A stretch of 39,071 nt of DNA, from NCBI GenBank assembly GCA_020444175.1, contig JAHLLM010000049.1:1-39071 (forward strand). The letters run 5' to 3'. The number at the start of each line of letters is the position of its first letter. Positions within the stretch are counted from its first letter, which is position 1. Positions 27,153 to 31,841 of this stretch are shown here, piece by piece. The translations under genes and the position numbers were made by a program. The notes beneath the pieces were generated by a model. That model saw nothing but the letters and a program-made list of their open reading frames with translations, had not been told where the DNA came from and did no database searches. The DNA is from Desulfobulbaceae bacterium (GTDB lineage: Bacteria; Desulfobacterota; Desulfobulbia; Desulfobulbales; SURF-16).

Positions 27153-28580
27153 TTGAAAATTCACTCCAGATCATTGATAATAAAAAGCACAACTTTTCTA
27201 TCCATTGCTTCGCTTTTTCACTTTGTGACAGGTAAAACGAAATTGTCCGTTCCCTCTAGTGTTAAATATATAGTTTTTGGGGGTGTCGTGGCCCTTATGG
27301 TTCACCTCCTGAACCTGGAAGCCACTTCTCACGTTAATCCTCGCTATCAGTATTTTCTTGCCATTGGCTCGGGAGCTGTGGTTGCCTACTTTGTCGGTCG
27401 CATGCGGGAAAGCTGGATACGCCGGACCAGACAGCTTGAAGAGGCCTATAGCAATCAGCAAAGAGAGATGGAAGAACGCAAGCAGGTTGAGCAGGCCTTG
27501 CGGCAAAGTGAAGAGCGTTACCGGGATCTTTTTGACAGTTCCGCTGATATGATCCAGATTATCTCTCCGGAGGGCAAGCTGATTTATGCCAATCAAAGCT
27601 GGCGTGAAAATCTTGGTATCTCCGCGGAAGAGGTAAATGGATTTCCCATGTTTGATATCATTACTCCGGAACATCATCCCCATTGTATGGAAAGATTCGA
27701 AAAGCTGCTGTCCGGTGGCAGTATGGACAAGCTGGAAACGGAATTTATTACCAGGGATGGCAATAAAATTCTGGTTGAGGGAAGTTGCAACTGTCGGTAT
27801 GAAGACGGCAAACCGGTATCCATTCGCGGAATTTTCCGTGATGTTACGGAAAGAAAGCAGATGGAAGAGGAGTTGCAGAAGTCCCAGAAGCTTGAATCCA
27901 TCGGGATACTTGCCGGGGGAATTGCCCACGACTTTAACAACCTGCTCAGTGGTGTACTCGGCGTTCTCTCCTTGATAAAATCTTCACTCCCCGAAGATGA
28001 CAAGCGAGTCGAAATATTGCAGGAGGCCCATGATACATGTATGCAGGGCAGGGAGTTGACCTCAAAATTTCTTACCTTTGCAGAGGGCGGCACTCCTTTC
28101 AAGAAATGTATCTCAATCGTATCCTTATTAAAGAAATCAGTTGAAATCGCCCTAACAGGATCGCATATACAATGTGATTACTCAATTCCGGATGATCTTT
28201 GGGAAGTGAATGTCGATGCGGGACAGCTCCAGCAGGTTTTTAACAACCTGATATTGAACGCCAGGGATGCCATGGACGAAGAGGGAGAATTGAAAATCAA
28301 TGCGGAAAATACGCCCTTTACCGCAGTTGAAGGATTTGTTCTGGCCCCTGGGAAATACATCAGGATATCAATAACAGATCATGGCGTCGGAATCCCGCCG
28401 GAGAATATTCCAAAAATCTTTGATCCTTATTTCACCACCAAGAATATGGCCAGTGACAGGGGGATGGGCTTCGGTCTTTCCATCTGCTACTCCATTGTTA
28501 AAAAACATGATGGCCTGATCACCGTCGAGTCCCAGAAAGGCATGGGGACTTCCTTTCACATTTTTTTGCCAAGCTGCTAA
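27153..28580 (+). CDS. Membrane-anchored PAS sensor histidine kinase
   Basis: The 475-residue protein has two likely membrane helices (YIVFGGVVALMVHLLNL and YFLAIGSGAVVAYFVG), a coiled coil, one PAS domain (about 125-240) and HisKA with H259 in GGIAHDFNN. The ATPase has NNLILNARDAMDEEG, DHGVGIPPENI and MGFGLSICYSIVKKH. There is no receiver, unlike the other two kinases here. The only start that keeps both helices is TTG at 27153, with AGGGAGAAG about ten bases upstream; the next ATG falls inside the first helix. Its stop overlaps the convergent selenoprotein gene by four bases. The response regulator is not in the window. Confidence 0.85.
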   Translation: MKIHSRSLIIKSTTFLSIASLFHFVTGKTKLSVPSSVKYIVFGGVVALMVHLLNLEATSHVNPRYQYFLAIGSGAVVAYFVGRMRESWIRRTRQLEEAYSNQQREMEERKQVEQALRQSEERYRDLFDSSADMIQIISPEGKLIYANQSWRENLGISAEEVNGFPMFDIITPEHHPHCMERFEKLLSGGSMDKLETEFITRDGNKILVEGSCNCRYEDGKPVSIRGIFRDVTERKQMEEELQKSQKLESIGILAGGIAHDFNNLLSGVLGVLSLIKSSLPEDDKRVEILQEAHDTCMQGRELTSKFLTFAEGGTPFKKCISIVSLLKKSVEIALTGSHIQCDYSIPDDLWEVNVDAGQLQQVFNNLILNARDAMDEEGELKINAENTPFTAVEGFVLAPGKYIRISITDHGVGIPPENIPKIFDPYFTTKNMASDRGMGFGLSICYSIVKKHDGLITVESQKGMGTSFHIFLPSC

Positions 28581-28831
28581 TTGGAATCGTAGAGTTCCCG
28601 AATAAACCGCCGTATTTCATTTTTGTTGAGAATAAAGCCCGAGAGCCTTTTGCTTCCTGCGACCAGAGTGGGAATCATTTTTATGCCATGCCGCAGGGTG
28701 AGCAATGGATTGGTGGTTACCTCGACTTCTTCAACAGTGAGGTCGGTGAACTCCTCCTGCATTTTTTTGAGCGCCCGGCCCACAAACATGCAGCGAGGTC
28801 AAATGGCGGATTTGTAAAAGGTAATGTGCAC
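28577..28831 (-). CDS. Thioredoxin-like selenoprotein with UPRC active site (TGA read as Sec)
   Basis: The conventional open frame begins at an ATG (28789) but lacks an active site. Reading upstream through an in-frame TGA at 28799-28801 to a GTG at 28831 gives 84 residues that begin MHITFYKSAIUPRCMFVGRAL. This is a thioredoxin fold start: a beta strand (HITFYKS), then the UPRC redox motif (U11, C14) in place of CPRC, then helix one. Downstream HGIKMIPTLV supplies the cis-Pro loop. Immediately after the TGA the RNA can form a 10-bp stem (CCUC and CUGCAU with GAGG and AUGCAG), as expected for a bacterial SECIS. Small redox selenoproteins are common in Desulfobacterota. It would reduce or form disulfides in the cytoplasm; its partner is unknown. 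The ribosome-binding site is weak. An alternative, a pseudogene, is less likely because the motif is intact on both sides of the TGA. Confidence 0.8.
28753..28798 (-). promoter_or_regulatory. SECIS-like stem-loop directly after the Sec codon
   Basis: Arms at 28788-28798 and 28753-28762 pair over ten base pairs with one bulged G, starting at the base after UGA. The enclosed loop is G-rich, with UGGG at 17-20 bases after UGA. This is close to where the formate-dehydrogenase SECIS of E. coli exposes its GGU. Inner pairs UUUG/CAAA could lengthen the stem. Predicted by eye only. Confidence 0.55.
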
Positions 28832-28899: not shown

Positions 28900-30843
28900 T
28901 TATTTCTCCAGCAATCCCTGAATATAATACTTTTCCTGCTGTTCCGGGATATACATTTCAAGATTGTTATTCCAGCGGCTTACATAGTGTCTTGTCAGGA
29001 GAACGCGGATGGCATTCTTCAGCTGCACCAGGGTGGTGTAGTAATGCATGAAGTATTCGCCGTAGTTGTTCACGGTGATAATAGTGGATTTAAAGGTAGA
29101 TGAACCTTTTACCGGCTCCTTGTCGAAATTGACTATAACCAGGGCGCGGGTTACGCTTTCAGTGCTGAGTAATTCGTCGGCAGAAATGTTGGAAAAATTG
29201 AACAGGGGAAAATTATTTAACAGGGTGTCCGCCAGGTTCTGCAGATCGGGCAGGTTGACGTTCAGAAAGTTCTTTGTGATGTGGATGCGGGTGCCTTTTT
29301 GCATAATACCGTTTATGGTCAGCCACATCATGAGATGAATCGGGTCAGTATCTCTTTTAATCTGCGAATCCGTATTCTGTCTGATGGACTCGGTATCGTG
29401 CTTGCCCTGGAAAACATAGTAGTAAATTACATTTTCATATTTGCTTGCATGAAAGGTAAGATGCTTCTGCTTCATGGCCTTGCGTGACAGGGTATGCAGA
29501 TAGGGTATCTTGTGTTCCTTGACATCGTAAAAGCTGAACAGTTTTTTGCCCAGTATGGACAGGTCTCGGTCGGTAATTGCCCGGCCGGTTTCTTCCGGAA
29601 AGGATTTTCTGAGCCAGCGCAAGCGATTATATGTGTCAAGCAGATAGGCGTGTACCCTGGTTCCGGTGGCAAGCAACTCTTTGTATTGCCAGTCATGGAG
29701 TTTTGCCATGCGTTTATAATCAGGGGGCAGCAGATCCCATTTTTGCATGAGAGCGAGTGTGGTCTGCAACTGCTTGTCTTCATTTTTTGGGGTCGTTCCC
29801 TCCAGGGTTTTCAAAAACAGGCATTCGCGGATAAGAACATCTTCATCCTTGATTTTGTTTTTCTGATAAAAGGCGATAATCTCCTTGGCCAGCAGCAGGT
29901 AGGGATCGATGTGCTGGATGGGAAGCTTCAGTTCGCTTTTCGGCAGCCGCTCCGGGAAAGTAACGAGGCAGAGAATCTTGGTTGAAAAAAGGGTAAAGAT
30001 TTTTGTTTTATTTTTAAGCAGCAGTTCAAGGTAGGCAAACTTGATCACTGATTTAAACGGGCTGTCCAGGGCCTTGTTGAGCTGCCACAGACAGGCCCCG
30101 AAAATTTCCGCCTTTGGAATATCGGCGATATAGCCAAGGTCAACAAAATTATCAGGATTCAGGTGGCGTTTATTAACAAGCTCCTGTACGTATTTTCGAT
30201 AACCATCTTCGGTCAGGCCCGGAGGGATAAGCCACCAGAGCAGCATTTTTCCGGCAACGAGAATATGGGTGCGGAAGAGCTCGTCCTTCAAAAGGAGTTT
30301 TAATGCCGATCCTGCTGATTCCTCTTCCGCTGCGGATGAAAATCTGTTTTCCCTGGTCTGATCGATATCCATTAAAAAGAAATAGACTTCCATTCCCTGT
30401 TCTGCTGCCCATTTTTCAATACCTTTGCATTTGGTGGACAGGAGCCCGGCCCCATATGAGCCTATTTCCTCAAGGCGAATACTTACCCAGAAATCACAGT
30501 CTGATTTTTCAGACTGGGCAATGGTGCCGATGCTGCCGATGGTTTTCAGCGAGTGAATACACGGGTTTCGGGCATAGGGCGATTTTGTTTTATGGCTTCT
30601 TGCTGTGGAGTCTGGGAAATATTGGCGGAAAAGCTCACCGTTAACCACCTTTTCCGGCAAAAAACGATAAATTCCAAAAGGACAGTCCGCATCATCGATA
30701 TAGCCGGGAAGATCAGGATAATTGCAGTGGAGAAGATAGGGTATGAGCTTGAAAAGAATGCCTGACCGGTTGGGCTGAAAGTTGATGGCTTTAACTTTGC
30801 GGCTTCTGTTATAGGCCTGGTATCTTTTTATTTTATCAAGCAT
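28900..30843 (-). CDS. cyaA: Class I adenylate cyclase
   Basis: The 647-residue protein has the class I adenylate cyclase catalytic signature near residues 100-120: TIGSIGTIAQSEKSDCDFWVSIR, where the two Asp of SDCD are the likely metal ligands and the Gly-Ser stretch belongs to the nucleotidyltransferase fold. The N-terminal start MLDKIKRYQAYNRSRKVKA also fits this family. It would make cyclic AMP from ATP in the cytoplasm. It is about 200 residues shorter than the 848-residue E. coli enzyme, chiefly in the C-terminal regulatory part. It follows folP after about 150 bases on the same strand. No CRP-like receptor is in the window. The start lacks a clear ribosome-binding site. Confidence 0.8.
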   Translation of the reverse strand: MLDKIKRYQAYNRSRKVKAINFQPNRSGILFKLIPYLLHCNYPDLPGYIDDADCPFGIYRFLPEKVVNGELFRQYFPDSTARSHKTKSPYARNPCIHSLKTIGSIGTIAQSEKSDCDFWVSIRLEEIGSYGAGLLSTKCKGIEKWAAEQGMEVYFFLMDIDQTRENRFSSAAEEESAGSALKLLLKDELFRTHILVAGKMLLWWLIPPGLTEDGYRKYVQELVNKRHLNPDNFVDLGYIADIPKAEIFGACLWQLNKALDSPFKSVIKFAYLELLLKNKTKIFTLFSTKILCLVTFPERLPKSELKLPIQHIDPYLLLAKEIIAFYQKNKIKDEDVLIRECLFLKTLEGTTPKNEDKQLQTTLALMQKWDLLPPDYKRMAKLHDWQYKELLATGTRVHAYLLDTYNRLRWLRKSFPEETGRAITDRDLSILGKKLFSFYDVKEHKIPYLHTLSRKAMKQKHLTFHASKYENVIYYYVFQGKHDTESIRQNTDSQIKRDTDPIHLMMWLTINGIMQKGTRIHITKNFLNVNLPDLQNLADTLLNNFPLFNFSNISADELLSTESVTRALVIVNFDKEPVKGSSTFKSTIITVNNYGEYFMHYYTTLVQLKNAIRVLLTRHYVSRWNNNLEMYIPEQQEKYYIQGLLEK

Positions 30844-30969: not shown

Positions 30970-31001
30970 GTAACTCAGAACCGAGAACTCACAACTCAGA
31001 A
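30970..31001 (-). repeat. Heptanucleotide repeat (GTTCTGA type) at the 3' end of folP
   Basis: Read on the minus strand the units are GTTCTGA, GTTGTGA, GTTCTCG, GTTCTGA. The TGA of the first unit is the stop codon of folP. The core differs from GGACTGA but the 7-base period and the TGA position are the same. Confidence 0.7.
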
Positions 31002-31841
31002 CTTGTGATTTTCAATAGCCTCGACAATCTTAACGGCCTGAACCGTCCTGATCACATCATGGACCCGTAAGATAGATGCGCCTTTGCAGGCACAGAGAGC
31101 TGAAATGACGGCCGTTGCTTCATCACGTTCCTGAGGGTTGTCAAGGGCGAGAATCTTGCCGATAAATGATTTGCGGGAGTGCCCCATGAGAATCGGGCAG
31201 CCGAGGGATGAGAATTTTTCAAGATTTTTTATGATGGTCAGGTTGTGGGCCACGGTTTTACCAAAACCAATGCCCGGATCGATAATAATTTTTTTGCGGG
31301 AAAGACCGTGTTGTTCGGCCCAATCTATGCGTTCGGACAAGCCAGAACATATGTCAACAATCACATCATCATATGTCGGGTTAACCTGCATATCCCGCGG
31401 GGTGCCCTGCATATGCATGATTATAACCGGGACATCGTATTCCACGGCAACGGACACCATTTCTGCATCCTGCTTGAGTCCGCTGATGTCATTAATGATA
31501 TCAGCCCCGGCTCTGATGGCCTGCCGGGCGACTTCCGCTTTGGTTGTGTCGATGGAAATGGGTGTTTGGTAGCGTTTTCTGATACTCTGTATGGCCGGTA
31601 GAACTCTGTCAAGTTCGTCTTGCAGGGAAACAGCCTCGGCAAAAGGCCGTGTCGACTCGCCGCCGATATCAAGGATATCAACACCGGCGGCTACCATTTG
31701 CTCGACCTGGGTAAGAAAAGCATCTTCCCGGTTAAACATTCCTCCGTCAGAGAAAGAATCGGGCGTGACGTTAAGGATGCCCATGACATGGACGTGATCG
31801 GTAAAGTCCATGCTCCGTTCTTCTGAATCCCGCACCGTCAT
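30996..31841 (-). CDS. folP: Dihydropteroate synthase
   Basis: The 281-residue enzyme joins p-aminobenzoate to dihydropterin pyrophosphate in folate synthesis. It has [17 protein letters not shown] (the pterin-binding first signature), [46 protein letters not shown] and [10 protein letters not shown], in family order and complete. The ATG overlaps the ftsH stop as ATGA, so translation is coupled; the ftsH-folP order is also found in many proteobacteria. The C-terminus ends ENHKF with its TGA inside a heptamer repeat. The 10 residues before the fold ([10 protein letters not shown]) may be a slight extension; an internal ATG exists at residue 11. Confidence 0.97.

Follow-up and report, generated by a model that had tools for sequence, protein, structure and literature searches.

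Evidence for a minimal thioredoxin-like selenoprotein with a UPRC motif in Desulfobulbales

Small redox proteins with selenocysteine (Sec) in the active site have been sorted by domain and by motif. In Table 1 of a recent inventory of 119 selenoprotein families the domain PF13192 (Thioredoxin_3) is entered only with the motifs CxU and UxC, the thioredoxin-like selenoproteins Sec.1 and Sec.2, and the motif UxxC is listed for thioredoxin (PF00085) and glutaredoxin (PF00462) as well as for several further thioredoxin-like families (PMC13188914). The Sec-thioredoxins and Sec-glutaredoxins of that table, which are marked there as verified, are small redoxins in which UxxC opens the catalytic helix. 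Further relatives are the Uxx-star proteins (NF041212, NF047338), which are small glutaredoxin-like (seleno)proteins, and the PDO/AhpF-N-like selenoprotein (TIGR02187) and GOS_C (NF045500), whose domain of thioredoxin or glutaredoxin-like type carries UxxC. For the hairpin that directs decoding of UGA as Sec in bacteria, section 5 of the same source describes a bacterial SECIS (bSECIS) model with a loop of 3–9 nt, a stem of 4–16 bp, a G within the first two positions of the loop, a distance of 16–37 nt between UGA and loop and a minimum free energy (MFE) of at most -7.5 (PMC13188914). For Desulfolithobacter dissulfuricans GF1 (3,596,428 bp) the table of the deep-Sep paper appears to give 22 selenoprotein genes, all of them known (PMC12013277).

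The gene considered here lies in a stretch of 39,071 nucleotides from a Desulfobulbaceae genome, referred to as the window, and has the following parts.

28577-28831, minus strand: thioredoxin-like gene of 84 codons plus stop, with a predicted Sec, based on translation, homologs, Pfam and AlphaFold
28799-28801, minus strand: in-frame TGA, read as Sec11, which opens UPRC
28790-28792, minus strand: Cys14, the second redox residue of UPRC, with a putative resolving role
28670-28672, minus strand: codon of Pro54 at the cis-proline place
28754-28797, minus strand: predicted SECIS stem-loop, composed of a lower stem and an upper hairpin
28768-28782, minus strand: upper SECIS hairpin of 5 bp with the loop CGGGC at 28773-28777, 21 nt after the TGA

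Read on the minus strand from 28831 to 28577 with TGA as U, the frame yields 84 residues with U at position 11 (VHITFYKSAIUPRCMFVGRALKKMQEEFTDLTVEEVEVTTNPLLTLRHGIKMIPTLVAGSKRLSGFILNKNEIRRFIRELYDSN*). The earlier note on this DNA had placed a small thioredoxin-like UPRC selenoprotein here without naming a strand, and its 84-residue product with U11 and the order HITFYKSAI-UPRC agrees with this translation. It had also warned that the usual call would start at 28789 and lose the catalytic motif, and indeed the mechanical open reading frame covers 28577-28789, with 70 residues beginning at an ATG (Met15) just past UPRC, so that the motif is lost from the called protein. The GTG start of the window gene at 28831 lines up with an ATG in many relatives. 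No Shine-Dalgarno-like 4-mer lies within 20 nt of this GTG, and one is found near the start in 26 of 67 homolog loci. At its other end the frame meets a histidine kinase frame on the plus strand (27153-28580) tail to tail in an overlap of four bases, 28577-28580.

How does this protein compare with the described families? With PF13192 it scores 25.8 bits, above the gathering cut-off of 24.8, and 18 of the 28 members of our family alignment match the same profile (E <= 0.001). It thus shares its domain with Sec.1 and Sec.2, whose motifs in Table 1 of PMC13188914 are CxU and UxC, and differs from both, Sec.2 included, in having UPRC, a UxxC motif. Scores of 24.1 bits with PF00085, barely above the cut-off of 23.5, and of 14.2 bits with PF00462, below that of 22.9, set the 84-residue protein apart from Sec-thioredoxin and Sec-glutaredoxin as far as profile scores tell; compared with classical thioredoxins it is without the first 20 or so residues, its residue 1 aligning near residues 20–28 of many chains. 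No NCBIfam model reaches its cut-off with the window protein. The best, TIGR00411 (MJ0307 family thioredoxin), gives 31.3 bits against a required 92.75, and 25 of the 28 aligned members, each scanned, match it (E <= 0.001). The Uxx-star models remain far below their cut-offs (NF041212 with 21.8 bits against 66, NF047338 with 21.6 against 97), and the UPRC family keeps the second Cys of UxxC in every aligned member. TIGR02187 (PDO_seleno_TRX) reaches 13.9 bits against 185, and NF045500 is not among the 11 NCBIfam families matched by the 28 members (E <= 0.001). None of the 119 entries of Table 1 of PMC13188914 clearly fits the UPRC redoxin; since that table lists UxxC under thioredoxin, glutaredoxin and others, the family could have been lumped there, and it may already be counted in an existing selenoprotein list. 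In the literature searched we found no selenoprotein with UPRC, and mentions of CPRC as a thioredoxin active site were judged unrelated. The kind of protein is already known, and the family apparently has no name of its own; that it is a lineage-specific family using a known mechanism is well supported. It adds a compact selenoprotein family that the standard open reading frame call truncates.

The predicted fold is that of a thioredoxin. An AlphaFold model built on the alignment (mean pLDDT 94.1, pTM 0.83) has strands at residues 2-7, 32-37, 55-58 and 61-64 and helices at 12-27, 42-47 and 70-83. The CxxC-type motif stands at the start of a helix and a proline before the third strand, as alignment and model agree. 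Six columns are invariant in all 28 members, the four of C/U-P-R-C, P54 and G65. The earlier note had proposed a helix after UPRC and an IP cis-proline loop; in the model Pro54 lies directly before strand 55-58, and its cis state we take from knowledge of the thioredoxin fold. In a Foldseek search thioredoxins dominate, with TM-scores by query of 0.72–0.86 among the 50 matches listed. With VIA-align the highest thioredoxin Z is obtained for 1v98_A (Z 13.7, rmsd 1.4 over 83 residues), and fold-switched KaiB also reaches Z 12.4, so that the fold alone is no proof of a redox function and the invariant motif says more. The best sequence match in the PDB is 1fo5_A, which we take to be MJ0307.

What emerges is, very likely, a genuine selenoprotein gene at 28577-28831, in which UGA is decoded as Sec in a minimal thioredoxin. 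The anatomy of the gene and the established mode of SelB action suggest that the ribosome would meet the UGA at codon 11 and that the hairpin close behind it would recruit SelB and selenocysteyl-tRNA(Sec), which would insert selenocysteine. The product would be a minimal cytosolic thioredoxin of the order beta-alpha-beta-alpha-beta-beta-alpha. Judging by fold and motif, the selenolate of Sec11 would attack a disulfide of the client, Cys14 would resolve the mixed selenosulfide, and a reductase would be needed to recharge the redoxin. The reading frame, the motif, the Sec/Cys exchange, the hairpin and the machinery on which this reading is built are all features read from sequence.

Of 116 genomes searched, that of the window among them, 68 have a homolog. 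The motif codon of the 67 loci that cover it, again including the window, is TGA in 27, TGC in 29 and TGT in 11, and thus encodes Cys in 40; one further locus (L089), cut at a contig end and without the motif, was dropped from this count. As the earlier note had expected, relatives carry UPRC or CPRC at the motif position, the TGA at 28799-28801 takes the place of the first active-site Cys, and across relatives this codon switches between TGA and Cys instead of being conserved as a stop. An in-frame UGA aligned with the redox Cys of homologs is one mark of a bacterial selenoprotein gene. A DNA pattern around the UGA, run on the genome_contigs collection, returned 67 stretches; by alignment score 58 of them encode the UPRC redoxin family and nine do not, and the 58 overlap the 27 TGA loci. 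With taxa as given in the records, 37 of the 58 belong to Desulfobulbales (Desulfobulbaceae, Desulfobulbus, Desulfocapsa, Desulfocapsaceae, Desulfatifera, Desulfobia), 12 are of Desulfobacterales, Desulfoarculaceae or Deltaproteobacteria type, seven are entered as Proteobacteria or Pseudomonadota, one is unplaced and one (L151) comes from a metagenome-assembled genome named Vicinamibacterales. This last locus has a Sec form and shows no cyclase match within its 8 kb; horizontal transfer or mis-binning may account for it. A search of 395 genomes of the phylum at a strict cut-off of 1e-8, with only about 13 candidates scored per genome, gave seven matches, all in the window's own order, and the viral_contigs collection contained no match to the DNA pattern of the UGA region.

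In the window the following genes lie upstream of the redoxin.

28900-30843, minus strand: gene of a class-I adenylate cyclase (647 aa), the immediate upstream neighbour (PF12633 180.9 bits, PF01295 148.9 bits)
30996-31841, minus strand: gene of dihydropteroate synthase type (Pterin_bind, 308.8 bits), farther upstream in the same gene run

Genes for FtsH and carbamoyl-phosphate synthase are also found farther upstream in the window. A homolog of the dihydropteroate synthase gene (folP) is among the flanking frames of four of the 67 loci, with flanks of 1.5–2 kb only. At 38 of the 67 loci, 10 with Sec and 28 with Cys forms, a cyclase homolog precedes the redoxin on its strand. In 23 of these 38 the cyclase ends at most 60 nt from a nominal start of the redoxin, and in two (L041, L079) another reading frame intervenes. 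It could be imagined from this arrangement that the redoxin is a redox partner dedicated to the class-I adenylate cyclase and links redox state, together with selenium supply, to cAMP, a reading that we consider improbable and that can hold together with the decoding of UGA as Sec. Co-occurrence speaks for it: of the 68 genomes that have the redoxin 40 also have the cyclase, compared to 14 of the 48 others (Fisher p 0.002 and odds ratio 3.5 before any correction for kinship). Against it, the 116 genomes include 28 with the redoxin and without a cyclase match and 14 with the cyclase and without the redoxin, 34 having neither. In another clade, moreover, the neighbours are different. At 17 loci the redoxin is accompanied by a divergent gene, which in the member tested (L057) is histone-deacetylase-like, and often by another that has CBS domains in the member tested (again L057). 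Whether redoxin and cyclase are functionally tied was examined through the cysteines of the cyclase, for which 36 of the 38 upstream pieces passed a length filter. Cys at position 95 is found in 14 of 17 cyclases with the redoxin versus one of 14, and Cys at position 292 in 23 of 36 versus two of 14. That these cysteines track the redoxin was rejected as a sign of partnership, as by clade they follow kinship at least in part; two genomes that have no redoxin keep Cys292, and the test lent no support to a direct link. In the literature searched we found no report tying a selenoprotein thioredoxin to adenylate cyclase in Desulfo- bacteria. A wider proposal, that the family is a selenium-dependent switch for the adjoining cyclase which ties cAMP to the thiol/selenol state in Desulfobulbales and that clades without the cyclase re-use the redoxin for other clients, we regard as improbable to the same degree. 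The frequent cyclase neighbour suggests a testable link to cAMP signalling.

The earlier note had a SECIS-like stem starting at the base after the TGA, which is almost correct: the predicted stem-loop spans nucleotides 5–48 counted from the T of the TGA (28797-28754). In the window the 48-nt stretch folds with an MFE of -17.6 kcal/mol (z -2.22; five of 200 shuffles as good), and the hairpin of 5 bp with loop CGGGC at +21 lies within the published bSECIS constraints. The 18-nt upper hairpin alone is ordinary (93 of 200 shuffles as good). For the nearest homolog (L023) a 51-nt stretch is no better than chance, with 187 of 200 shuffles as good, and the upper hairpin can form. An Rfam search of the window yielded no SECIS match and no family above the gathering level; the only matches at E up to 10, two to mir-4520 and one to a lncRNA, were taken as chance. 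Since the crude MFE of 42-nt stretches differed only weakly between Sec and Cys forms (one-sided p 0.04), a model-based hairpin test with the published constraints of bSECISearch was used instead. It was applied to 61 Sec forms, related to each other and not independent, that comprise the 27 TGA loci and 34 of the 58 pattern loci; 23 pattern loci that are duplicates over the first 48 nt and one that is too short (L156) were left out. The published geometry for simple hairpins, taken without the MFE limit, fits all 61 Sec forms and 24 of the 40 Cys forms. A strict version demanding a loop of the form [N]G[G/U] of 4–6 nt, a range narrowed after the sequences had been seen, is passed by 59 of 61 Sec forms (the exceptions being L040 and L140) and 11 of 40 Cys forms, as compared to a synonymous-codon null of 200 runs with a mean of 8.5 and a maximum of 15 for Sec forms and of 5.7 and 13 for Cys forms.

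The loop occurs in different registers. The window gene and its like have it at +21 (CGGGC and similar), a second Sec group at +28 (TGGAT, TGTAT and similar) and a third at +18 (GGTCT), with singletons at +16 and +17. Among the 29 sequences in the +21 register 94.5% of cells are paired versus 78.9% in shuffles, double-change cells number 21 versus 7.1 in shuffles, a number reached by none of 500, and a covariation score of 0.579 compares with 0.281 for shuffled and at most 0.168 for slid versions. Two of the five measures are not outstanding: four of five pairs are changed on both sides, which 41 of 500 shuffles equal or exceed (mean 2.5), and the count of 10 further pair types is reached by 108 of 500. 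Among the Cys forms these columns are paired in 100 of 200 cells, and in the +28 Sec group of 28 sequences all 140 cells pair. Judged by these alignments, the SECIS stem carries compensatory changes, and the stem suspected in the earlier note is of the bacterial SECIS type and covaries. Sec/Cys swapping and SECIS elements in the registers +21, +28 and +18 under one conserved protein make the family a natural data set.

Could the TGA nevertheless be a true stop, with a gene of 70 residues that starts at the ATG at 28789 and lacks the motif, the upstream codons being a relic? This is the standard open reading frame call, and an ATG follows within 12 codons of the TGA in 52 of the 61 Sec forms, which means that nine have none. 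The codons upstream of the TGA, as far as substitution patterns tell, evolve as coding sequence under purifying selection: across the 61 Sec forms pN/pS is 0.35 for the eight codons before the TGA and 0.51 for the 15 after it. UPRC alternates with CPRC, the hairpin is kept above synonymous-codon chance, and without residues 1–14 the modelled fold would lose its first strand. Taken together, this evidence leaves a true stop very improbable. That the TGA is a recent nonsense mutation of TGC or TGT in a pseudogene is hardly credible at all: there are relatives with Cys, a single step leads from either codon to TGA and the window copy has no Shine-Dalgarno sequence, but 27 of 67 loci and the 58 pattern loci (overlapping sets) share the TGA, the window gene evolves with a pN/pS of 0.26–0.39 versus five relatives (0.26 versus L023, the nearest), and the SECIS covaries.

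With Sec decoding as the preferred reading, the exchange between Sec and Cys can be followed on a quick tree of 99 rows from which the Sec codon was excluded and two sequences of under 60 residues (L105, L114) were omitted. It requires at least 12 changes, compared to 31.5 in shuffles, a count that is rough as the well-supported branches force only two. Three Cys forms (L051, L055, L069) match Sec-form sisters at 65, 64 and 58 of 66 nt and retain their hairpin despite the Cys codon, as expected for recent Sec-to-Cys changes; their hairpins are probably fossil SECIS elements, to go by DNA identity and hairpin retention.

The genome of the window (5.42 Mb in 90 contigs, completeness 100) has the machinery that the earlier note had named, with selA, selB, selC and selD all over their cut-offs: selC with 67.2 bits against a gathering threshold of 47, called by ARAGORN as tRNA-SeC with anticodon tca, selB with 367.8 against 242.25, selA with 621.9 against 267.9 and selD with 379.1 against 125. 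Co-occurrence with selA was rejected as a test for Sec because it is uninformative: selA is matched in 106 of the 116 genomes, among them most of those with Cys forms, and two Sec-form genomes, G058 (L070) and G115 (L058), have none by two profile models while selB is present, which may reflect a masked stretch, an assembly gap or a real loss. The selD gene of the window genome has an in-frame TGA of its own (L019, G000:C79:89271-90194), so that its product is probably a selenoprotein too.
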